Shown: piece after piece, positions 4,924 to 14,907 of the stretch | Layout: each line of letters starts with the position of its first letter | How positions within the stretch are numbered: the stretch's first letter is position 1 | Source: Bacillota bacterium | Lineage (GTDB): Bacteria; Bacillota; Bacilli; Bacillales; Cytobacillaceae | Reading direction: 5' to 3' | Assembly (NCBI GenBank): GCA_030705745.1 | Contig: JAUZPT010000005.1 | Span: forward strand, 1 to 26,477 | Length of the DNA: 26,477 nt | Position numbers and translations under genes: made by a program | The notes under the pieces: generated by a model | Seen by the model: the letters and a program-made list of their open reading frames with translations, nothing else | Told to the model about the DNA's origin: nothing | The model's database searches: none

Positions 4924-5031
4924 ATTGCTTAATCTTCACGAAATAGTAAGATTTATTCGCAAGTTATCGATCTTTTATTTGCTAAACTAAATGAGAAAAA
5001 TAATAAATGCAGATTGGAAGGAGTGACCGCA

Positions 5032-5478
5032 ATGAAACGATTTTCTTCTGTCCTGCTGGCGGGCCTTCTCGTGGCCGGTATTGCATCTGGATGCAGTTCA
5101 AATAAAGAAGCATTGAAGCTGGACAAAAAACATCAGCCATTGCCCGATTATGTCATAAATACATCAGATAAAATCCAGGAAACGTATATTATGGCATCGA
5201 AATATCCGGAAGTCTTGGCATCTGTTGCTTGCTATTGTGGTTGTGGGGTATCAGATGGGCATAAAAGCAATCTCGATTGCTACGTGAAAAAAATGGGACC
5301 TGGCAATTCAGTTGAAGAATGGGATCCAATGGGTATATCCTGAGACACCTGTATCAATATCGCCCGGGAGGCGGTAAGTTTGAAACAGGATGGAAAAAGT
5401 TTAAAGGAAATTCATAACATTATAAAAGAAAAGTACAAAGTTTTAGGTGATCCAACTCCAACTCCGGAACCGAAGTAA
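5032..5478 (+). CDS. PCYCGC-motif lipoprotein, candidate selenoprotein (TGA at codon 104)
   Basis: A lipoprotein of the PCYCGC family (function unknown). ATG at 5032 follows GGAAGGAGTG. The signal peptide ends in a lipobox with Cys21. The mature part has A-C-Y-C-G-C (Cys67, 69, 71), GHKSNLDC (Cys83) and W97. TGA at 5341-5343 (codon 104) then interrupts the frame, which continues as DTCINIAREAV...KEIHNIIKEKY...DPTPTPEPK to TAA at 5476-5478. As I recall homologues, this tail is conserved and codon 104 is the first Cys of CxxC, so the product would carry U104-x-x-C107. A strong SECIS-like hairpin follows the TGA. Other readings are a Cys-to-stop mutation, or separate translation of the tail from TTG at 5380. 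It precedes a cytochrome c gene by 11 bases. A thiol/selenol redox or metal-handling role outside the membrane is inference. Confidence 0.75.
5341..5389 (+). promoter_or_regulatory. Candidate bacterial SECIS element downstream of TGA
   Basis: After TGA (5341-5343) and a 4-base gap, CCTGT (5348-5352) pairs with ACAGG (5385-5389). After an A-A mismatch, TCAA (5354-5357) pairs with TTGA (5380-5383). After a 3-base bulge (5377-5379), TATCGCC (5358-5364) pairs with GGCGGTA (5370-5376, one G-U pair), closing on loop CGGGA (5365-5369). The apical loop begins 21 bases after the TGA and has G at its second position. That is within the published bacterial SECIS model (16-37 bases, G in the first two loop positions). 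An SD-like GGGAGG with a TTG at 5380 is buried in the same hairpin. Confidence 0.7.
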
Positions 5479-5489
5479 GGAGGCTTTGT

Positions 5490-6152
5490 GTGAAAAAAAT
5501 TCTGATTGGCAGCTATATACTCATTACGGTAGGAATCATTTTTGTAATTAGCCAAAACAGTTTTAGTAGCACTAAGGATGTCAAGTCCATCCAAGCAGGC
5601 GAAAAGCTGTACAAACAACAATGTGCAGCTTGCCATGGTGAAACAGGTAAAGGTGAGGGGGAAAAAGCTGGAACTTCCTTAAACAACAAGCAATTTCTTA
5701 GCACCTTTTCCGATAAAGATCTATATAACAGTGTGAAATTTGGTAGAGAAGGAACTCCGATGCAGGGATATAAAGATAAATTATCGGAGAAACAGCTTAA
5801 ACAACTAATTGCTTACATGCGAAACTGGCAGGAGGAACAAATCCAGTTTATAGCTCCCATTAAAATAGAAGGCGATCCGGAAAATGGGAAAAGGCTTTAT
5901 GGTTTGTATTGTCTCAGCTGTCATGGTGATGCAGGGACAGGGAAAGTAAAGATGGGCACAGCACTTGCAAATCCCCAATATTTACAATATACAACAGATA
6001 AACAAATTTGGATTGGAACCGCTTACGGACGAGAACAAACACGAATGAATCCGTCCTTGAAAGGCTTGGAGGGAGTTCGACAGTTAAAAGAAAAAGAGAT
6101 TTCAGATGTCGTATCGTATATTCGCAGCTTGCAGAACAAAAGACATGAATAA
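5490..6152 (+). CDS. Membrane-anchored dihaem cytochrome c
   Basis: A 220-residue extracytoplasmic electron-transfer protein. Residues 4-21 form an uncleaved hydrophobic anchor. Two class I cytochrome c domains follow, each with one haem site: C45-A-A-C48-H49 with likely axial Met91 (GTPMQGY), and C141-L-S-C144-H145 with likely axial Met186 (TRMNP). The second domain is otherwise similar to the first, suggesting an internal duplication. GTG at 5490 is the start, 6 bases after AAGGAGG. It lies 11 bases after the PCYCGC lipoprotein gene, so the two are probably co-transcribed, and a terminator follows. It is the obvious local substrate for the Ccm proteins encoded downstream. Its redox partners cannot be read from the sequence. 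Confidence 0.9.
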   Translation: MKKILIGSYILITVGIIFVISQNSFSSTKDVKSIQAGEKLYKQQCAACHGETGKGEGEKAGTSLNNKQFLSTFSDKDLYNSVKFGREGTPMQGYKDKLSEKQLKQLIAYMRNWQEEQIQFIAPIKIEGDPENGKRLYGLYCLSCHGDAGTGKVKMGTALANPQYLQYTTDKQIWIGTAYGREQTRMNPSLKGLEGVRQLKEKEISDVVSYIRSLQNKRHE

Positions 6153-6187: not shown

Positions 6188-6576
6188 TTATGTAGACTCG
6201 TTATGTGAATTTGCTATTTTAAAGTGTTCTTTGTCTTCCGGAAAAAGGAAATAAGTGCTAAATGTTAACAAAATATTCATTTTCCCGCAATCGGCTGAAA
6301 AAGATAAGGCTTATAGTATTCATTAGAGGCAGTTTAAAGTGGAATACCAAAAAGCTTAAAATAGGTAACTTATACTTTTAAAAGATGACAGCCAAGGAAA
6401 TGTGAACATTCTGTGTTTATTGTTTGACGAAAACTCTACGAATTTTCGTCTTTAACAAAATGTTCAAGAGTGACTCCACTTTTAAGGTTGATTACCGATT
6501 ATATTTATTTCAAAGAGGACTATGTTGGAAATTAATGCTTAAACCTGATGAGTTTTCCATGCCAAGGAGGATCAAT
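6188..6576. other. 389-base non-coding region before the ccm operon
   Basis: No gene is supported here. The frame of the downstream gene stays open back to a TTG at 6424, but those codons lack a ribosome site and read as random sequence. The region must hold the ccm operon promoter. TATACT (6371-6376) and TATAGT (6312-6317) are possible -10 hexamers without good -35 partners. The inverted repeat at 6426-6450 is described separately. Confidence 0.6.
6426..6450. repeat. 8-bp perfect inverted repeat upstream of the ccm operon
   Basis: GACGAAAA (6426-6433) and TTTTCGTC (6443-6450) are exact reverse complements separated by 9 bases, about 130 bases before the first ccm-operon gene. TTGACG (6424-6429), a possible -35 hexamer, overlaps its left arm, so it could be an operator or a leader hairpin. 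No matching -10 is clear. Confidence 0.4.
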
Positions 6577-7632
6577 ATGCTAAAGAAATTATTTGCATTA
6601 TTCGTAGTTGTTGCCTTTTTAGCGAATTTCGAGGTCAAACCGGCCAGTGCGGATGAAAAATTCCGACCAGAACAATTTCCCTACAAAGCAATGCAAATTC
6701 AAGTGATGCCGGAATTTGATTACCCGCCAAAATGGCCAAAGGATAAACCATCCTTATTGGTCGGCCAATATGGGACGATGGTGAATAAGAGCGGAAAGGA
6801 TTTTTCAGGGAAAATTGAAATTCAAGTGCCGGCAAAAGAGAAAAATTATCAACTCTCTCTTGTAGCGGAGTTTCCATCAGAAAATAAACCTGAAGTACCG
6901 AGACCGTATGCTTTGGATACAAAAAACGGAACCGTCAGCTGGACGCCTCAAAAACCGATTAAAAACAACGAAACGTATAGATTTGTAATTGAATATTATT
7001 CAAATTCAATCAATGTAAAAGACAGAAAAAGCTTTTCTTACAGCTTTACAAACCAGGCGAATATTGATTTGCTCGATGTAATCTATTATGCCCCCCTAAA
7101 CGCAAAAGAAATACAACTGCAGCCAAAGCCACTAAGCACTTCAAAAAGCGAATATGGCGAAGACATTTATTATTATCAGTACAAAAATTTGAAAAAGGGC
7201 AATAAAGTTACTTACAACTTTTCTTATAAAAAGGACGGGAATGAATCGACATTAACGGCAATTGACAAAAAGCAGCCGCCAAAAGATGCAAATCACACTG
7301 GTGTTAATGGAGATGGAACAGCGACTGATCAAGTGTTGAAAAATGGCAGTGGAACTCCGGATGTCAGCCGCCCAATTATCGGGACGTCAGGAGCGCTAAT
7401 CATTGGCCTGTCAATCATCATCGCAGGAGCATTCGTGTTTTTCGGGTTAAAAGGAAACAAAAAGGCGCCTCCCAAAACTCAAGTTACACAAAAAAAATCG
7501 CCAAAAAAACAGACAGCAAGGAGAGATCACAAACTATCGAATGTGGAAGAAAAAAAGGAACTTCGTAAAAAACTTTTAAACGGAAAAATTGATCAGGAAA
7601 CATATGAAGAGGAAATGAAAAAATTGATTTAA
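6577..7632 (+). CDS. Exported membrane-anchored protein of the ccm operon (unknown function)
   Basis: A 351-residue protein I do not recognise by name. It has a signal peptide (1-25, ending PASA), then about 250 residues of beta-rich, Lys/Tyr/Pro-rich extracytoplasmic sequence without Cys. One membrane segment follows (about 268-290, GTSGALIIGLSIIIAGAFVFFG), then a basic linker and a short cytoplasmic helical end (EEKKELRKKLLNGKIDQETYEEEMKKLI). That end resembles the short helical pair found after the membrane segments of CcmI. Topology is shared with the gene at 10999. ATG at 6577 is chosen because AAGGAGG lies 6 bases upstream; the upstream in-frame TTG at 6424 has no such site. It is the first gene of the ccm operon. 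Role in haem delivery or apocytochrome handling is a guess. Confidence 0.75.
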   Translation: MLKKLFALFVVVAFLANFEVKPASADEKFRPEQFPYKAMQIQVMPEFDYPPKWPKDKPSLLVGQYGTMVNKSGKDFSGKIEIQVPAKEKNYQLSLVAEFPSENKPEVPRPYALDTKNGTVSWTPQKPIKNNETYRFVIEYYSNSINVKDRKSFSYSFTNQANIDLLDVIYYAPLNAKEIQLQPKPLSTSKSEYGEDIYYYQYKNLKKGNKVTYNFSYKKDGNESTLTAIDKKQPPKDANHTGVNGDGTATDQVLKNGSGTPDVSRPIIGTSGALIIGLSIIIAGAFVFFGLKGNKKAPPKTQVTQKKSPKKQTARRDHKLSNVEEKKELRKKLLNGKIDQETYEEEMKKLI

Positions 7633-7647
7633 AGAGGGTGGATGAGA

Positions 7648-8100
7648 ATGAAAAAGAATACAACTGTGATGCTAGGCGGTTTTATTATCATGGGGGCCAT
7701 TGTTTTCTTGTTAATGGCTGCTACCCCTGGATCAAGTGGAGTTGAATTGACATTAAAGCAGTTGATTGCCACACAAAATCAACACAAAAACGATTATGTA
7801 ACGGTAGAGGGTTTATTGATTGAGAAATCGATCAAGTGGGACGCAAATAAAATTCAACTGAAATTTGATGTGAAAGACAGTGATCACAACCTGCTTCACG
7901 TAACCTATAACGGAACAAAGCCAGATAACTTCTCAGAAGGAGTTATTACAATCTTGCAGGGATCTCCCATCGGAAATAATTCATTTAATGCTGAGACAGT
8001 CAAGACAAGATGCCCTTCAAAATATGAAGGCAAGGATATGAAAAACTATGATCCAAAAAAACATGAAAAATTTCTGAACAAACCACTAAAACAAAAATAG
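7648..8100 (+). CDS. ccmE: CcmE haem chaperone, CxxxY variant
   Basis: CcmE accepts haem from the CcmABCD complex, holds it covalently outside the membrane and passes it to CcmF. This 150-residue protein has one N-terminal membrane anchor (about 6-25) and an OB-fold beta barrel (about 33-118). It then has a flexible Lys-rich tail. In place of the proteobacterial HxxxY motif it has C122-P-S-K-Y126. The CxxxY form is known from archaea, Desulfovibrio-type bacteria and some Gram-positives, where Cys is the haem-binding residue. Two ATGs occur (7642, 7648); the ribosome site GAGGGTGG abuts the first, so 7648 is preferred. ccmF follows after 26 bases. Confidence 0.85.
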   Translation: MKKNTTVMLGGFIIMGAIVFLLMAATPGSSGVELTLKQLIATQNQHKNDYVTVEGLLIEKSIKWDANKIQLKFDVKDSDHNLLHVTYNGTKPDNFSEGVITILQGSPIGNNSFNAETVKTRCPSKYEGKDMKNYDPKKHEKFLNKPLKQK

Positions 8101-8126
8101 AGCCTAAAAGATAAGAAGGTGACGAC

Positions 8127-10109
8127 ATGTATTTATTTTCAAATGCAACAATCTATATAGGCTTAGCGATCGCCATTTACTCGCTTTTGGTGATGACGCT
8201 GGGAATCATCAAGAAAAACCAGAAGCTTATCAACAGTGGTAAAGGTGGGGTCATTGCGCTTTTCATCTGTGCGGGAATGGCAATGCTTTCCTTATTCTAT
8301 TTACTCGCTACTTCCCAATTTAAATTTGAATATGTTACAGATTACACAAGCAGTGAGCTTCCGATCATTTACAAATTGACTGCCCTCTGGGCTGGAAATG
8401 CGGGTTCTCTACTATTATGGACATTTTTCTTGACACTTTATACAGTTATGATCACTTTCTCTAGAAAAATGAAGGGGAATCCAATGGTTCCTTATATCAA
8501 CTCGATTTTACTCGTAAATGCAGTCTTTTTCTTCTTTATCCTTGGATTCGTAGCAAAACCATTTGCCATCCTTGATACTGTTCCAACAGAAGGCAAGGGA
8601 TTAAATCCAATGCTTCAAAATCCAGGCATGATCATTCATCCTGTCACATTATATCTTGGATATGTAGGCTTATCAGTCCCGTTCGCTTTTGCGATGGCTG
8701 CACTCATTATGAAAAATATGGATGATTTTTGGATCAAGATGACAAGGCGCTGGACGATTATTGCCTGGTTGTTCCTGAGCCTTGGAAATATCTTTGGCGG
8801 TCAATGGGCATATGTCGAGCTGGGCTGGGGTGGTTACTGGGCATGGGATCCAGTTGAGAACGCTTCGTTTATGCCTTGGTTGACCGCTACCGCTTTCTTG
8901 CATTCGGTTATGATTCAGGAACGCAAAAATATGTTGAAGGTTTGGAATATTAGCTTAATCATCATTTCCTATGCGCTAACACTTTTCGGAACTTTCCTAG
9001 TTCGAAGCGGAGTCCTAACTTCAGTTCATGCGTTTGCCAATTCCAATTTGGGGCTATATTTTCTCATTTTCATGGCATTTGCTGTAATTGGAGCTCTTTA
9101 TATTTTGATGAGTCGATATAACTTAATTAAACGTAGCGCCGGGGAGTTTAACTCGATTGTTTCAAAAGAAAGCAGCTTCCTAATTAACAACCTGCTTTTG
9201 GTCGGTGCTGCTTTTGCAATTTTCTGGGGAACCATTTTCCCACTTGTTTCTGAAGCGGTTCGTGGGACGAAAGTCACTGTTGGAACTCCGTTTTTTAACA
9301 AGGTGGAAGCACCGATTTTATTATCGATGATGTTTATTATGGCCGTTTGCCCGCTTCTTGCATGGCAAAGATCAACCGTAAAAAATTTGAAGAAAAACTT
9401 CTTGCTTCCAGCGGTTCTCGCTGTTGTAGCAATGATACTAATGGTTGTATTAGGGATTCAAAAAGCATGGGCGGTCATTGGGTACGGCGTAATCGCACTG
9501 TTATTTGTTACACATTATTTGGAATTTTACAGGGGGATAAAGGCTAGAAGAAAAATGACAGGTGAAATGCCGCTTGTTGCTTTATACCGCTTGATGACAA
9601 AAAACAGGCGTCGTTATGGCGGGTATCTAGTCCATCTTGGAATCGCATTCATAACCATGGGGATTATAGGATCACAAAACTATGACTTGCAAACGATGAA
9701 GACAATCCCGCTTGGAAAATCGATTGAAATAAAAGATTACAGAATCAATTACGACAAGCTAGATCAGCGAAAAGAAGGAATAAATGACATTATCTATGCA
9801 AAGGTAACAGTTTTCAAGGATGGAAAAAGCCTAGGTACATTTGAGCCTCAAAAGGTTTTTTATGGACATTGGGATGAGCCTTCATCAGAGGTAGCGATCA
9901 TTTCTTCACTCAAGGAAGATTTGTACATCGTGTTAAGTGCCTGGGAGGATGATGGCCGTGCAACCTTCGTTGTAAAAGTAAATCCTATGATGGACTGGTT
10001 ATGGATCGGGTCCTTTATGATTGTCCTCGGTGCACTGTTTGCAGTTTGGAATGGAAAATATCAAAACCTGACTCCACGATATACCGGAGTTCGTAAAGAG
10101 GTGTCTTGA
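8127..10109 (+). CDS. ccmF: Cytochrome c haem lyase subunit CcmF
   Basis: CcmF takes haem from CcmE and attaches it to CxxCH motifs of apocytochrome c outside the membrane. The 660-residue length and roughly 14-15 hydrophobic segments are typical. The WWD domain is clear (about 232-265: GWGGYWAWDPVENASFMPWL). It is preceded by a haem-ligand candidate His171 (MIIHPVTLYLGY) and followed by FGTFLVRSGVLTSVHAF. A late YLVHLGIAFITMGIIGSQ block matches the transmembrane-haem region. The C-terminal extracytoplasmic domain (about 520-625) and final membrane segment are present. ATG at 8127 follows AAGAAGGTGACG. The gene ends with TGA 2 bases before the ccmH ATG, indicating translational coupling. Confidence 0.96.
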   Translation: MYLFSNATIYIGLAIAIYSLLVMTLGIIKKNQKLINSGKGGVIALFICAGMAMLSLFYLLATSQFKFEYVTDYTSSELPIIYKLTALWAGNAGSLLLWTFFLTLYTVMITFSRKMKGNPMVPYINSILLVNAVFFFFILGFVAKPFAILDTVPTEGKGLNPMLQNPGMIIHPVTLYLGYVGLSVPFAFAMAALIMKNMDDFWIKMTRRWTIIAWLFLSLGNIFGGQWAYVELGWGGYWAWDPVENASFMPWLTATAFLHSVMIQERKNMLKVWNISLIIISYALTLFGTFLVRSGVLTSVHAFANSNLGLYFLIFMAFAVIGALYILMSRYNLIKRSAGEFNSIVSKESSFLINNLLLVGAAFAIFWGTIFPLVSEAVRGTKVTVGTPFFNKVEAPILLSMMFIMAVCPLLAWQRSTVKNLKKNFLLPAVLAVVAMILMVVLGIQKAWAVIGYGVIALLFVTHYLEFYRGIKARRKMTGEMPLVALYRLMTKNRRRYGGYLVHLGIAFITMGIIGSQNYDLQTMKTIPLGKSIEIKDYRINYDKLDQRKEGINDIIYAKVTVFKDGKSLGTFEPQKVFYGHWDEPSSEVAIISSLKEDLYIVLSAWEDDGRATFVVKVNPMMDWLWIGSFMIVLGALFAVWNGKYQNLTPRYTGVRKEVS

Positions 10110-10111
10110 CC

Positions 10112-10615
10112 ATGAACCGTAAGCTCTTCCTCACCCTCTTTGCAGCAATGTTTGTTTTGCAAGCATCATTCATTCATGTTGAAGCAAGGCAAATTGATTA
10201 TAAATCAGAGGAATTTAGAGAAGTTGCTTCCCAGTTTGCCTGTACATGCGGATGCGGTCAAGATCATTTTGAATGCGATCCCAACACATGCAGTTTAACA
10301 AAATCATTTAAAAAGGATCTTGTTGGGATGATGAATAAAGGAATGAACAAAGATCAAATTCGCGATTATTACGTAAAAATTTACGGTGAGGAAATTCTCA
10401 CTTCACCCGAAAAAAGCGGTTTCAGCCTTACAGCATGGGTTCTTCCATTTGTTGTTTTAGGTGGTGCAGGCGCAGGGGTGTTATTTATCATTCGAAAATG
10501 GGCCAAGAAAAAGGATGATGATGAACCTACCCTTGACATCAAAAGCGAAAAGGATGAAGTAGAAGGTGAAATTCTTTCTTCCATCATCGATGAGGAACGA
10601 AAAAAGTATCTTTAG
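10112..10615 (+). CDS. ccmH: CcmH-like thiol protein with CxCGCG motif
   Basis: CcmH proteins keep apocytochrome CxxC cysteines reduced at the outer face of the membrane and work with CcmF. The 167-residue product has a signal peptide (1-25) and a short Cys-rich helical domain: C44-T-C46-G-C48-G with Cys55 and Cys60. A membrane helix (about 107-130) and an acidic cytoplasmic tail follow. The usual proteobacterial LRCxxCQ is replaced by ACTCGCG, a form I associate with CcmH of non-proteobacteria. The same A-C-x-C-G-C-G string occurs in the PCYCGC lipoprotein at 5032. ATG 10112, 8 bases after AAGAGGTG, is preferred to the TTG at 10106. Confidence 0.85.
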   Translation: MNRKLFLTLFAAMFVLQASFIHVEARQIDYKSEEFREVASQFACTCGCGQDHFECDPNTCSLTKSFKKDLVGMMNKGMNKDQIRDYYVKIYGEEILTSPEKSGFSLTAWVLPFVVLGGAGAGVLFIIRKWAKKKDDDEPTLDIKSEKDEVEGEILSSIIDEERKKYL

Positions 10616-10627
10616 GATGTGAAAAAA

Positions 10628-11002
10628 ATGGAAGATATTTCGATAATATCAATTACGTTTACAGTTCTACTTGCTCTTGGCTGTCTATATCTTATTTTGA
10701 CTCCTTTATTCAAATGGGAAGCATATTGGCAATTAGGTGATAACGAATCGGATTCATCGGTTACGAAGGAATCACTCCTGACTACACTCAATGAAATCGA
10801 GTTTGAATACAAAATGGATAAAATATCCGAAAAAGATTATAAAGTGCTAAAAAGACAGTATGAAAGCTATATAGCTGGAATTATGAAAGACGAAGAGCAA
10901 GTAGAAGATAAGGAAGTTGACAAGGATCTGATGGCTGAAGTAGAGAAGGAAATCGAAGCAACGATGCTAAGCTACAAGAAGAAAAAGGGGGAAGAGAAGT
11001 GA
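10628..11002 (+). CDS. Short CcmI-like membrane protein
   Basis: A 124-residue protein with one N-terminal membrane helix (about 8-26). It continues with a cytoplasmic segment SLLTTLNEIEFEYKMDKISEKDYKVLKRQYE, the pattern seen after the membrane segments of CcmI (helix, short G/D-x-I-S turn, ExxY helix). A highly charged coiled-coil tail follows. It lacks the TPR domain of full CcmI. In CcmI this region helps deliver apocytochrome to CcmF/CcmH; the same role here is inferred from position between ccmH and the rest of the operon. A GTG at 10619 is also in frame, but AGGATG abuts it. ATG at 10628 has proper spacing. Confidence 0.7.
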   Translation: MEDISIISITFTVLLALGCLYLILTPLFKWEAYWQLGDNESDSSVTKESLLTTLNEIEFEYKMDKISEKDYKVLKRQYESYIAGIMKDEEQVEDKEVDKDLMAEVEKEIEATMLSYKKKKGEEK

Positions 11003-11991
11003 TTAGAAAAATCACCATCTTCTTCCTTGGACTCCTATTGCTCGTACCGGCACATTCACTAGCAGCATCAAATGCAAATATATCAATCGATATGCATTAT
11101 CTTGTTGTCAGTCCTGCTGAAGACGGTTCGACCAATATGATGAACATGGTGAATTACACCAATACTTCTGCACAGGAGTACAAGGGAGATGGCACAGGAG
11201 AAGCCGTTTTAAAGGTTACGCTGCCAAAGGGAGCATCAAATCTAAATTTTTTAGACAACAAAATAGCAATTAAACAAAGTCCAACAGGTTTTATAACAAC
11301 CGATCCATTTCCGGCTAACCAAACAATGGTCCTTCCCTACAGTTATCGAGTGCCAAAGGGAAAAGATATCAACTTGAAATTTGATTATCCTGTCCAATTA
11401 TTGCAAGTTCTCGTGCCAGAGGGAATGGGGAGCGTAGAATTCAAAGGTGTCCAATTTACGAATCAGGGACAATTCAAATTTGAGGACCAAAAATATGTGG
11501 GATACAGTGTGGAAGGGATAAATGCCGACCAATCATTCACAATGCGTTATAACAAAAGTATTCAACCATCTGCTGATAGCTTAAAGCCGGCAAAGAAAAG
11601 TGATAGCAGCAAATCTGCCGTCGTATCAAGGACAGCACCTCCTTTTCATAATCCGGGCCATCTTCGCATGTGGGCTGAATCCCCACTGCATCAATTCAAT
11701 CCGCACATTGTCTTAATTTTGTTGCTTGCTATCATAATTGCCGGAATATACTCCTATGCGTATTTTAGAAGGAAAGACCGACTAGAAGCAGAAAGGCTCG
11801 GCGCGGATAAAGAGGAACAAGCATTCAAAAATTTAATGGCAAAACAAAAAGCGATACTCGATAAAATACTTGAGCTAGAAGAAATCCATGAAAACGGGGA
11901 AATGCAAGAAGATGAATATGCAGCAAAACTTCAAGCATATAAACAGCATTTGATCCAGGTGAAATTAAATCTTCGCAAATTTGTAGAGTAA
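10999..11991 (+). CDS. Second exported membrane-anchored protein of the ccm operon
   Basis: A 330-residue protein of unknown function. It has a signal peptide (1-23, ending SLA) and an extracytoplasmic beta-sandwich-like region of about 180 residues without Cys (VLKVTLPKGASNLNF ... DINLKFDYPVQ). A linker (about 195-232), one membrane helix (about 236-256) and a long cytoplasmic coiled-coil follow (AILDKILELEEIHENGEMQEDEYAAKLQ). The last part repeats the CcmI-like helix-turn-ExxY pattern. Topology matches the gene at 6577, so the two may be distant paralogues or partners. GTG at 10999 overlaps the preceding stop by 4 bases (GTGA), indicating tight translational coupling within the ccm operon. 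Confidence 0.75.
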   Translation: MIRKITIFFLGLLLLVPAHSLAASNANISIDMHYLVVSPAEDGSTNMMNMVNYTNTSAQEYKGDGTGEAVLKVTLPKGASNLNFLDNKIAIKQSPTGFITTDPFPANQTMVLPYSYRVPKGKDINLKFDYPVQLLQVLVPEGMGSVEFKGVQFTNQGQFKFEDQKYVGYSVEGINADQSFTMRYNKSIQPSADSLKPAKKSDSSKSAVVSRTAPPFHNPGHLRMWAESPLHQFNPHIVLILLLAIIIAGIYSYAYFRRKDRLEAERLGADKEEQAFKNLMAKQKAILDKILELEEIHENGEMQEDEYAAKLQAYKQHLIQVKLNLRKFVE

Positions 11992-12015
11992 CAGCTGGAA
12001 TGGGAGAGGCTGCAG

Positions 12016-12720
12016 ATGATTGAAATTAAAAAGTTAACGAAGCAGGCAGACAATAAATTGATTCTTCGCGGAATCGACCTCTCAATAAAAAAAGGGGAAA
12101 CAGTGGCCATTCTTGGCCCTAACGGGGCGGGAAAGAGTACCTTGTTAAAGGTGCTGGCTACTTTAATTAAACCTTCTTCCGGGCATGTAACGATCAATGG
12201 ATACGATTTAAGGAAAAATCAAATGAAAATAAAAAAAATGATGGGATATTTACCCCATTCAAGTTTGCTCTATGATCACTATTCTCCCCTTGAAAACCTT
12301 GTTTTTTTCGGCAATGTTTATGGCATTAAAAACGTGGAGCAAAAATCTATTGATTTAGTCAGAGAAGTGGGATTATCTTTCTTTTTACATGAACCGGTCA
12401 AAAATTTTTCACGAGGAATGATTCAAAGAATTGCGATTGCCCGTGCGATTATACACGAACCCCCTCTTCTATTGCTTGATGAACCGCATACGGGTTTGGA
12501 TCAAGGAGCGATCAATATCTTGAACAATGTCATTCTTTCGATGAAAGAAAAAGGCACCACCACCTTAATGGTTACTCACGATTTTAAACAAGCAACAGAA
12601 CTATGTGATCGAATTATCATCATTAAAAATGGCAAAATTGTCGATGATTTTCGACTAGAGGAAAAAAAGCTTAACTTGGTTTCCGAAAAATATCAGCTTC
12701 AAGTAGAGGGGGTTTCATAA
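12016..12720 (+). CDS. ccmA: ABC transporter ATPase CcmA
   Basis: CcmA is the cytoplasmic ATPase of CcmABCD, which releases haem-loaded CcmE from CcmC. The 234 residues contain Walker A GPNGAGKST (34-42), a Q-loop-like region around 76-85, an ABC signature in the form FSRGM, Walker B LLLLDEP with Asp155, and the switch His (VTHDFKQA). The FSRGM signature is usual in CcmA. Fused domains are absent and the length is normal. The direct neighbours ccmB and ccmC identify it among the many ABC ATPases. ccmB starts one base after its stop. ATG at 12016 follows GGGAGAGG. Confidence 0.92.
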   Translation: MIEIKKLTKQADNKLILRGIDLSIKKGETVAILGPNGAGKSTLLKVLATLIKPSSGHVTINGYDLRKNQMKIKKMMGYLPHSSLLYDHYSPLENLVFFGNVYGIKNVEQKSIDLVREVGLSFFLHEPVKNFSRGMIQRIAIARAIIHEPPLLLLDEPHTGLDQGAINILNNVILSMKEKGTTTLMVTHDFKQATELCDRIIIIKNGKIVDDFRLEEKKLNLVSEKYQLQVEGVS

Positions 12721-12721
12721 A

Positions 12722-13396
12722 ATGCTAAGAGCAGCCCTTTTACTCGCAAAAAAAGATTTATTATCGGAACTAAAAACAAAGCAGGTCCTAGCAACGATGA
12801 TCATTTTTGCTGGTCTTGTTATCCTGGTATTCAGCTTCGCCTTTGACCCGGCAAACAACACAACCCGTGCAGTGATTCCAGGAGTCATTTGGGTAATTAT
12901 TGTCTTTGCAGGAATACTTGGACTAAACAGGTCGTTTATATCCGAGCAGAGAAATGACACGATGCATGGGCTACTCATTGCCCCGATGGAAGCGTCGAGC
13001 ATTTTTCTAGGTAAATTCCTGGCGAATTTTTCAATGATTATGATTGTTGAGTTAGTTTCCTTGCCGTTTTTATTCCTATTGTTCGATTTTCATATACTTG
13101 GCTATTTTCCTTATTTTCTTCTCGTCCTGGTAATAGGAAGTTTCGGATTTATCAGTATTGGCACTTTTTTGGCGGCACTCTCCGCCAATTCAAAAAGCAG
13201 CGAAATGCTTTTGCCACTTTTGCTCTTTCCAGTCACTAGCCCGATATTGATCGGTGCTGTCCAAGCAACCCGAATCATTTTGACGAATATTGAGAAGCTA
13301 TCGAGCGCCATGGCATGGATCCAATTGATAGCAGCATACGATGTCATCTTTTTTGTTCTATGTTTTATCCTAATTGATTATGTTCTGGAGGTATAG
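12722..13396 (+). CDS. ccmB: Haem exporter-type permease CcmB
   Basis: CcmB is the membrane subunit that pairs with CcmA in the CcmABCD complex. The 224 residues and six hydrophobic segments match the family. The early FISEQRNDTMHGLLIAPMEASSIFLGKF block is the conserved CcmB loop (ER..GTLEGLLLSP in other members). ATG at 12722 overlaps nothing but is only one base from the ccmA stop, with the GAGGGGG ribosome site inside the ccmA end. ccmC follows after 3 bases. The substrate of CcmAB itself is debated in the field. Confidence 0.9.
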   Translation: MLRAALLLAKKDLLSELKTKQVLATMIIFAGLVILVFSFAFDPANNTTRAVIPGVIWVIIVFAGILGLNRSFISEQRNDTMHGLLIAPMEASSIFLGKFLANFSMIMIVELVSLPFLFLLFDFHILGYFPYFLLVLVIGSFGFISIGTFLAALSANSKSSEMLLPLLLFPVTSPILIGAVQATRIILTNIEKLSSAMAWIQLIAAYDVIFFVLCFILIDYVLEV

Positions 13397-13399
13397 GAG

Positions 13400-14161
13400 A
13401 TGAACACAAATACCGCGCGGAAACAAGCTTCCCTGCTAAAAACAGAGCCTGTTGCCGAAAAAGGTACATTATTTCCCAAAATATTATTAGGTGCAACGGC
13501 TGTAACGGTTTTAGCATCCATTTATATGATATTTATCTTTTCTGAAGTAGAAAAAACGATGGGTGTAGTTCAAAAAATATTTTATTTCCATGTTTCCTCA
13601 GCATGGTGTGCATTTCTCGCCTTTTTTGTAACATTCGTATGCAGCATTTTATATTTGGCGAAACGAAAGAGGATTTTTGATACGTATGCCTATGTATCTG
13701 CTGAAATAGGTGTTGTTTTCACCAGTATCGTGTTAACGACTGGCCCGATTTGGGCAAAGTCATCATGGAACACTTGGTGGGCATGGGAACCACGCCTCAC
13801 GACTACATTGATCCTTTGGTTTATTTATATGGCTTATATCATGATCCGCCAAATGGACGGAGTTTGGGATAAAAAGGCGCGCTTGGCAGCCGTCTTTGGA
13901 ATTCTTGGATTTATTGATGTTCCAATTGTCTTTTTTGCCATACGGTGGTGGCAATCCAAGTTCCATCCAATCGTTTTTGGCAACGGGCCATCGCAAAAAG
14001 GTGGCGGTATCACACATACCATGCTTTTGGCGCTGTTAGTTTCCATTGCTGCATTAACCCTCCTTTACAGCTATCTACTTCAAAAAGGGGTAAATTTAGA
14101 AAATATGAGAATCAAAGTAAGCCAATATAAAGAAAAATTACGTGAAGACATGGAGAAATAG
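13400..14161 (+). CDS. ccmC: Haem-handling membrane protein CcmC
   Basis: CcmC presents haem on the outer face of the membrane and loads it onto CcmE. The 253 residues have six membrane segments and the WWD-type block SSWNTWWAWEPRLTTTLILWF (about 118-138), the CcmC version of the tryptophan-rich haem site. Flanking His candidates are in KIFYFHVSSAW and GGGITHTMLLALL, at the usual places before and after the block. An N-terminal cytoplasmic extension of about 28 residues precedes the first helix. ATG at 13400 follows GGAGGTATAGGAG. ccmD starts 13 bases after its TAG stop. Confidence 0.93.
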   Translation: MNTNTARKQASLLKTEPVAEKGTLFPKILLGATAVTVLASIYMIFIFSEVEKTMGVVQKIFYFHVSSAWCAFLAFFVTFVCSILYLAKRKRIFDTYAYVSAEIGVVFTSIVLTTGPIWAKSSWNTWWAWEPRLTTTLILWFIYMAYIMIRQMDGVWDKKARLAAVFGILGFIDVPIVFFAIRWWQSKFHPIVFGNGPSQKGGGITHTMLLALLVSIAALTLLYSYLLQKGVNLENMRIKVSQYKEKLREDMEK

Positions 14162-14173
14162 GAGGAGAAAAAC

Positions 14174-14299
14174 ATGGGTTTTTTATACGGTGCATATTCA
14201 GTTGTATGGGTAATCATATTTGCGTATTTAGTGATTTTAGGAAAACGGCAATCGAAATTAAAAAAGGAAATTGAGTTTCTGAAACAACTTGAAAGATAA
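14174..14299 (+). CDS. ccmD: CcmD, small membrane subunit (41 residues)
   Basis: A 41-residue protein: MGFLYGAYSVVWVIIFAYLV, then ILGKRQSKLKKEIEFLKQLER. One membrane helix (about 5-22) is followed by a basic, helical cytoplasmic end, the standard CcmD design (AAYxVVWxxxxxYLxxxxxRxxxLxxEL). CcmD is needed for release of holo-CcmE from CcmABC. ATG at 14174 has an AGGAGGAG ribosome site overlapping the ccmC stop. It sits directly after ccmC, its usual place. It is short enough to be missed by length-filtered gene finding. Confidence 0.87.
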   Translation: MGFLYGAYSVVWVIIFAYLVILGKRQSKLKKEIEFLKQLER

Positions 14300-14311
14300 G
14301 GATTAACAGCC

Positions 14312-14352
14312 AAAAAGCCTGCTTGATTCCTTTTGGTCAACCAGGCTTTTGT
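14312..14352 (+). terminator. Hairpin after ccmD (terminator or attenuator)
   Basis: AAAAGCCTGCTTGA (about 14313-14326) pairs with TCAACCAGGCTTTT (14337-14350), with one C-C mismatch and a 10-base loop. The T-run is only four long, so read-through into the thioredoxin-like gene 50 bases downstream is possible. Confidence 0.7.
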
Positions 14353-14400
14353 AAAACGATCCGGTAACACTTCATTGGCCGGAATTCAGGAGGAAAAAGT

Positions 14401-14907
14401 ATGAACAAGCGGATTACGAAACTACTCGTGCTGCTTCTTGTTATTGGTATGTTTAGTTTTTTCGCCTACAGTCTGTTAAACAAGGCTAAAACAACTGATG
14501 TGGGCGATAAGGCGTACAACTTTGAACTTGAGAATCTTCAGGGAAAGCAAACGAAGCTATCGGACTACAAAGGTAACATAATCGTTTTGAACTATTTTGC
14601 CACATGGTGTGCACCTTGTGTAGAAGAAGCTCCGGAATTGCAAGCGTTCGATAAGGATTATGGCGATAAGTATAAAATCCTTTTTATTGATAGAGGGGAA
14701 ACAAGGGATCACGTTAAAACATTTGTGGAGAAAAACAAATCCGTTTCAACTTATTTGTTTGACTACAATGCAAAGGTTTCCAAAATATACAATGTGACGG
14801 GTCAGCCCGAGACGTTTGTGATCGATAAAAAAGGAATCATTCGCAATCACTATAACGGTCCATTAACGGAAATGGAATTATACAATATGGTGAAAAAATA
14901 TGACTAA
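14401..14907 (+). CDS. CcmG/ResA-like membrane-anchored thioredoxin
   Basis: A thiol-disulfide reductase of the TlpA/ResA/CcmG type, which reduces apocytochrome CxxCH cysteines outside the cytoplasm. The 168 residues contain an N-terminal anchor (about 7-26), then a thioredoxin fold. The active site is WC70-A-P-C73 and the cis-Pro loop reads TGQPETFVID. The spacing and the short insert between them agree with ResA. ATG at 14401 follows CAGGAGGAAAAAGT. It lies just downstream of ccmD behind a moderate hairpin, so it probably serves the same maturation pathway. CcmG and ResA cannot be separated by eye, so no symbol is given. Confidence 0.88.
   Translation: MNKRITKLLVLLLVIGMFSFFAYSLLNKAKTTDVGDKAYNFELENLQGKQTKLSDYKGNIIVLNYFATWCAPCVEEAPELQAFDKDYGDKYKILFIDRGETRDHVKTFVEKNKSVSTYLFDYNAKVSKIYNVTGQPETFVIDKKGIIRNHYNGPLTEMELYNMVKKYD

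Follow-up and report, generated by a model that had tools for sequence, protein, structure and literature searches.

The window analysed here is a stretch of 26,477 nucleotides (contig JAUZPT010000005.1 of a Bacillota bacterium), and its positions 5032-5478 hold what we are highly confident is a selenocysteine (Sec) gene of the PCYCGC (PF13798) family. Further, we consider it probable that the product, a Sec lipoprotein made by read-through of an in-frame UGA, acts on c-type cytochromes on the outer side of the cell membrane as a CcmH-like selenol/thiol redox protein. We infer Sec insertion itself; our observations are the exchange of TGA for Cys codons among homologues, protein-level selection past the TGA, a covarying hairpin behind it, the co-occurrence of TGA copies with SelA and the linkage to genes for cytochrome c and Ccm proteins. 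The parts of the gene are as follows.

5018-5023, + strand: AAGGAG, a Shine-Dalgarno-like sequence ahead of the start codon (sequence)
5032-5340, + strand: selenoprotein gene before the TGA, residues 1-103 (sequence, PF13798)
5341-5343, + strand: in-frame TGA, predicted Sec104 of U-D-T-C (TGA/Cys exchange among aligned copies)
5344-5475, + strand: part after the TGA, residues 105-148, the conserved PF13798 end (PF13798, purifying selection)
5358-5376, + strand: predicted bacterial selenocysteine insertion sequence (bSECIS) hairpin, stem 5358-5364/5370-5376 of 7 bp, apical loop CGGGA at 5365-5369, 21 nt after the UGA
5476-5478, + strand: TAA stop of the selenoprotein gene (sequence)
5479-5483, + strand: GGAGG, the Shine-Dalgarno-like site of the next gene, immediately following the TAA (sequence)

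The predicted Sec codon and the hairpin behind it

The frame opens at ATG 5032, and 44 open codons with no further stop lie between the TGA at 5341-5343 and the TAA at 5476-5478, exactly where the initial annotation had placed them. Because 44 codons without a stop have a chance of (61/64)^44 = 0.12, the open run alone is weak evidence, and the evidence comes instead from homology. Read with TGA as U, the product of 148 amino acids scores 106.9 bits to PF13798 PCYCGC (gathering cut-off 25), in agreement with the earlier view that the continuation past the TGA is the conserved end of this family. The label PCYCGC given at that time holds for the family and not for the letters, since the window itself reads ACYCGC, with Ala replacing the first Pro. 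CYCGC spans residues 67-71 (5230-5244) and is followed by Cys83 and U104-D-T-C107; a lipobox ASGC with Cys21 at 5092-5094 was seen by eye. The AlphaFold model has a pLDDT of 87.4.

PF13798 was sought in two overlapping panels, a near panel of 61 genomes (the window's own and 60 relatives) and a class panel of 398 genomes (its own included), and unlisted lower-scoring matches were re-searched in 28 and 8 genomes. By motif, 118 PCYCGC copies were located in the fetched loci, of which 97, the window included, were left once duplicates had been removed; outside this set stand L012, L077 and L092 (CxxC site missed by the pattern), L013, L102, L103 and L104 (motif not located) and the loci fetched later. 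Among the 97 distinct aligned copies, codon 104 is TGA in 49 (window included), TGC in 30 and TGT in 18, the 48 Cys copies being an uneven sample that comes mostly from the highest-scoring Pfam matches. In every one of the 49, the reading continues past the TGA for 44-49 codons without a stop. This bears out the proposal in the initial annotation that Sec takes the first position of UxxC, where some homologues have Cys and relatives TGA. In an alignment of 53 rows (the window and 52 of 119 database homologues, picked for full length), at least 90% of the rows have Cys in column 104; C67, C69, C71 and C83 are invariant in these chosen rows and positions 104 and 107 are conserved in at least 90%. 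The PCYCGC alignment has six conserved Cys/Sec positions, together with an invariant GH.

Between the window and 12 clade relatives, mean pN/pS was 0.24/0.58 over the 36 codons after the TGA, 0.21/0.72 over 30 codons before it and 0.26/0.77 beyond the hairpin; these are rough estimates from short stretches, with one pS value above 1. The low ratio after the TGA argues that this part is selected as protein. An otherwise intact gene broken by a single TGA could in principle be a pseudogene created by a nonsense mutation, or carry a base misread in sequencing. We rejected this explanation, to which we give next to no credence, because 48 other distinct copies carry TGA at the same codon; selection goes on past the TGA as well, and TGA copies co-occur with SelA. 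We also find it very improbable that the TGA is a genuine stop yielding a short lipoprotein of 103 amino acids, with the downstream part conserved for some other reason. Such a stop would fit the 119 database homologues in that 61 of them finish exactly one residue short of the Sec position; judged from the proteins, these 61 would end at a TGA. Of the rest, 57 were classed by motif as Cys forms of full length, and one is ambiguous. Against it, selection acts at the amino-acid level on both sides of the TGA, and the Cys homologues read straight through. A general reassignment of TGA was rejected too, since TGA is also an ordinary stop in the window, where both CcmF and the open reading frame (ORF) at 10619-11002 terminate in it.

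In all 49 TGA copies, the best bSECIS-shaped hairpin lies 21-22 nt past the UGA, with the loop CGTGA in 30, CGGGA in 17 and TGGAT in 2; a hairpin of that kind was the best candidate in none of the 48 Cys copies. Across the six pairs of the stem, 92.9% of cells form pairs in the 47 distinct rows of TGA copies, compared with 46.2% in the Cys copies, which is the shuffle level. Columns 21-33 and 24-30, which link third bases of codons, pair in every one of the 47 rows, with five and three pair types, respectively. Changes on both sides of a pair number 31 against a shuffled mean of 7.2 (0 of 500 partner shuffles), and neither the covariation score nor the percentage paired was reached in any of the 500. 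Pairing falls to 24-53% when the hairpin is slid, and RNAalifold recovers the same stem. When synonymous codons were shuffled with the proteins kept, 0 of 100 shuffles were as stable for the TGA copies; for the Cys set, the mean single-sequence energy was reached in 2 of 100, and there was no consensus structure.

The bSECIS rules set out in a 2026 review (PMC13188914) are a loop of 3-9 nt, a stem of 4-16 bp, a G in the first two loop positions, a spacing of 16-37 nt and a minimum free energy of at most -7.5. The window falls within them: its loop of 5 nt has G in second place, its stem has 7 bp, the spacing is 21 nt and the energy -8.1 kcal/mol (-8.9 with flanks). All 49 TGA copies agree with the rules in loop, stem and spacing. 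Some features fit less well: just 12 of the 49 TGA copies reach the energy threshold (-7.5 kcal/mol, isolated stem), which is a limit of the prediction; the outermost pair is unpaired in 18 of the 47 rows; and two coarser covariation measures were less striking (22 of 500 and 73 of 500 shuffles).

On a tree of the 97 rows, built by a quick method from 89 columns with few forks resolved, Sec and Cys were exchanged at least five times by parsimony, and three exchanges are forced by well-supported branches. One genome (G026) carries the Cys form in the same gene order as the window; there the hairpin is gone from this place, and a different one occurs 29 nt on (-6.3 kcal/mol). Another (G021) has one Cys copy among Sec paralogues, which has likewise lost the hairpin at this place. 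At L133 of G022, two Sec-form copies stand in tandem at a distance from Ccm genes.

Sec machinery in relatives and in the window's own genome

In the near panel, TGA copies occurred in 24 of 47 genomes with SelA and in none of 14 without it (p 0.0004), and in 20 of 86 SelA-positive genomes of the class panel against 0 of 312 lacking it; p-values for this co-occurrence ignore kinship. SelA-lacking genomes with members of the Sec-like subfamily (G098, G115, G117, G250, G286, G329 and one copy in G277) have no stop within the match. Apparent TGA copies in the SelA-lacking G277 (a second, frameshifted copy) and G348 (decayed) were rejected on inspection by eye, which placed Cys at the site and TGA elsewhere, and a sub-threshold match with four stops in G368 was dropped. 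The locus in G348 (L168) holds a PCYCGC-like remnant in frame with an upstream thioredoxin-like CGHC stretch, with stops between the two, and looks by eye like a decayed fusion.

The window's own genome has selB, and its selD carries an in-frame TGA of its own in KAG(TGA)GCK. Two results from this genome weigh against Sec insertion in the strain: selA is present with one internal in-frame TAG (contig C17, locus L116, about 798-2192), and the draft yielded no tRNA-Sec that passed the cut-off, the weak matches being Ser, Leu and other tRNAs. The initial annotation had held that an absence of selA, selB and selC would refute it; selA, selB and selD are there, and the missing tRNA-Sec and the interrupted selA carry the result part of the way toward refutation. 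The Sec machinery could thus be broken or lost in this very strain, so that the gene now stops at a TGA that its relatives use. This genome is indeed the sole one of the 47 SelA-positive near-panel genomes without a tRNA-Sec over the cut-off. We nevertheless consider such a loss unlikely: selB and the TGA-containing selD are present, the hairpin is intact in the window, congeners carry an uninterrupted selA, and three of them have tRNA-Sec. Since the draft is 85.68% complete and spread over 566 contigs (contamination 4.9%), a gap in the assembly is the likely cause of the absent tRNA-Sec.

Neighbourhood, probable kinship to CcmH and proposed role

Downstream of the Sec gene lie genes for a cytochrome c and its maturation.

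5490-6152, + strand: diheme cytochrome c, the next gene (PF00034/PF13442)
7642-8100, + strand: CcmE (PF03100)
8127-10109, + strand: CcmF (PF16327/PF01578)
10106-10615, + strand: CcmH with a CxCGC motif, predicted distant relative of the selenoprotein (PF03918, hhalign)
12016-14161, + strand: CcmA, CcmB and CcmC (Pfam/NCBIfam scans)
14401-14907, + strand: ResA/TlpA-like thioredoxin-fold protein (PF00578; NF002854 (ResA) at 108.3 bits, below its cut-off of 170)

The first description of the gene as a lipoprotein beside cytochrome c and Ccm genes agrees with this map and with the prediction of a lipoprotein. The diheme cytochrome c gene adjoins the PCYCGC gene in 13 of the 19 clade-A loci examined (window included), and 11 of those 13 also have CcmE/CcmF/CcmH there. 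CcmF was found in 14 of 14 clade-A genomes and in 6 of the remaining 47 near-panel genomes (Fisher 1.7e-9, uncorrected for kinship).

Profile comparisons suggest a distant relationship between the PCYCGC selenoprotein and CcmH, with Sec lying on a CcmH Cys. In hhalign, CcmH was matched at 79% (P 1.6e-5) and, in a second comparison, at 84% (7.5e-6), the next best of 18 control clusters reaching 0.005; it was also the top row in three further comparisons, each of them weak and one a re-alignment of Foldseek's own list. Like CcmH (PF03918, including the one at 10106-10615), the window protein has a predicted helical domain, and its CYCGC and Sec104 align to Cys46/48/50 and Cys62 of CcmH; Cys83 aligns to Cys57 in one of two alignments. 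Unlike CcmH, it is predicted to be a lipoprotein, carries additional sequence between CYCGC and UxxC, and lacks the canonical LRCxxC. In a search with PF03918, the window protein gave no match; 3 of 53 family members gave matches below the cut-off, at best with E 0.11.

We infer both the lipid anchoring and the job of the protein, and propose the following mechanism. The UGA at 5341 would be read through with help of the predicted SECIS hairpin (5358-5376), SelB and tRNA-Sec inserting Sec104. In the mature protein, a small helical domain with kinship to CcmH would display CYCGC, Cys83 and U104xxC107. Its low-pKa selenol could attack and reduce disulfides of heme-binding CxxCH motifs, the first client likely being the adjoining diheme cytochrome c. 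Cys107 would then resolve the selenenylsulfide, after which the ResA-like protein, or a different one with a thioredoxin fold, would re-reduce the Sec protein. As to whether the protein plays a CcmH-like part in maturing or reducing cytochrome c, we see the scales as evenly balanced. More tentatively, and with the balance tilted against it, a large group of Bacilli may rely for cytochrome c maturation on a lipid-anchored Sec relative of CcmH, of common ancestry with the adjoining CxCGC-type CcmH, whose selenol reduces apocytochrome or heme-site thiols. If true, this would be, as far as literature searches show, the first selenoprotein in cytochrome c maturation. The proposal gives a family without an assigned function a testable job and pathway.

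The main rival to this CcmH-like role in cytochrome c maturation is a copper role, which we rate as quite possible while giving it somewhat less than even weight. Sec would be real, and the client would be copper or another soft metal: the protein would be an extracytoplasmic Cys/Sec-rich metallochaperone or metal-site reductase that feeds oxidases or protects against copper. Several results favour it. Ten hand-picked neighbours were scanned, and those in the UG-type Sec clade and at clade-A loci L109 and L132 include a P-type ATPase with an HMA domain, a repressor of CsoR type, CopC, CopD, SCO1, subunit II of cytochrome oxidase and a protein with a Cu-oxidase domain. CcmF is absent from 10 of the 11 near-panel genomes whose Sec copies are all UG-type, and the six conserved Cys/Sec positions with the invariant GH also count in favour of the copper reading. 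Because of these copper neighbours and the missing CcmF, we take a copper or oxidase-assembly role as a serious alternative. On the other side, the copper neighbours differ between loci and are often on the other strand, whereas the partner in clade A is the diheme cytochrome c in the 13 of 19 loci noted above, with CcmE/CcmF/CcmH in 11 of them, and CcmF occurs in all 14 clade-A genomes. Within the PCYCGC family, the client may differ from clade to clade.

Several features of the Ccm genes were seen alongside. The genes at window positions 7642-14161 make up a cluster for cytochrome c maturation of the System I type, here in a member of the Bacilli. Its CcmH reads CTCGC in place of the usual LRCxxC, and its CcmE reads TRCPSKYE, a Cys-type motif. 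Three conserved ORFs (6424-7632, 10619-11002 and 10999-11991) accompany the Ccm genes and may be CcmI-like or new maturation parts; the first had no match above cut-off in Pfam or NCBIfam, and the second none in Pfam. In G016, the locus L127 between the diheme cytochrome c and SIMPL/SpoIIIAA genes has no match to the part of the window that runs from ORF 6424 through the ResA-like gene (6424-14907), and CcmF sits on another contig; the Ccm cluster therefore appears to behave like a movable block at this site.

Comparison with known PCYCGC proteins

The initial annotation had put forward a candidate new selenoprotein, in a family with no described selenoprotein known to it; our searches do not support a new selenoprotein family. 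In the 2026 review (PMC13188914), PF13798 appears as "CYCXC family protein (hypothetical protein OS_HP4)" with UxxC, credited to Zhang and Gladyshev 2007; a 2022 review (PMC9312934) enters OS_HP4 as UxxC too, and NCBIfam names NF041379 "CYCXC family (seleno)protein" (OS_HP4). From this name and these entries, the PCYCGC/PF13798 family is already known as a predicted selenoprotein. This analysis adds a Sec branch, spread through Bacilli, that lies under the cut-off of the seleno-aware model tested. The curated cut-off of NF041379 is 90; the window scores below it, at 72.7 bits, as do all of ten Bacilli relatives (57.7-79.6; nine TGA and one Cys form). Among the papers listed by the literature searches, none dealt with the Bacilli branch or linked Sec to CcmH. 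Roughly half of the relatives located in the database stop ahead of the Sec position.

OS_HP4 (NF041379) shares with the window protein the Pfam family, the UxxC motif and a predicted Sec (PMC13188914). It differs in that the window stays at 72.7, under the cut-off of 90. AOT13_14730 of Parageobacillus thermoglucosidasius, a PCYCGC protein (PMC13068155), is likewise a lipoprotein with the conserved Cys set, is given no function in that paper, and has Cys for Sec as judged from the Cys count there. The Cys-form PCYCGC lipoproteins differ from the window in their RNA as well, the hairpin missing at this place in the 48 Cys copies tested. The family offers natural Sec/Cys pairs, including one with unchanged gene order, where loss of the Sec codon went together with loss of the conserved hairpin.
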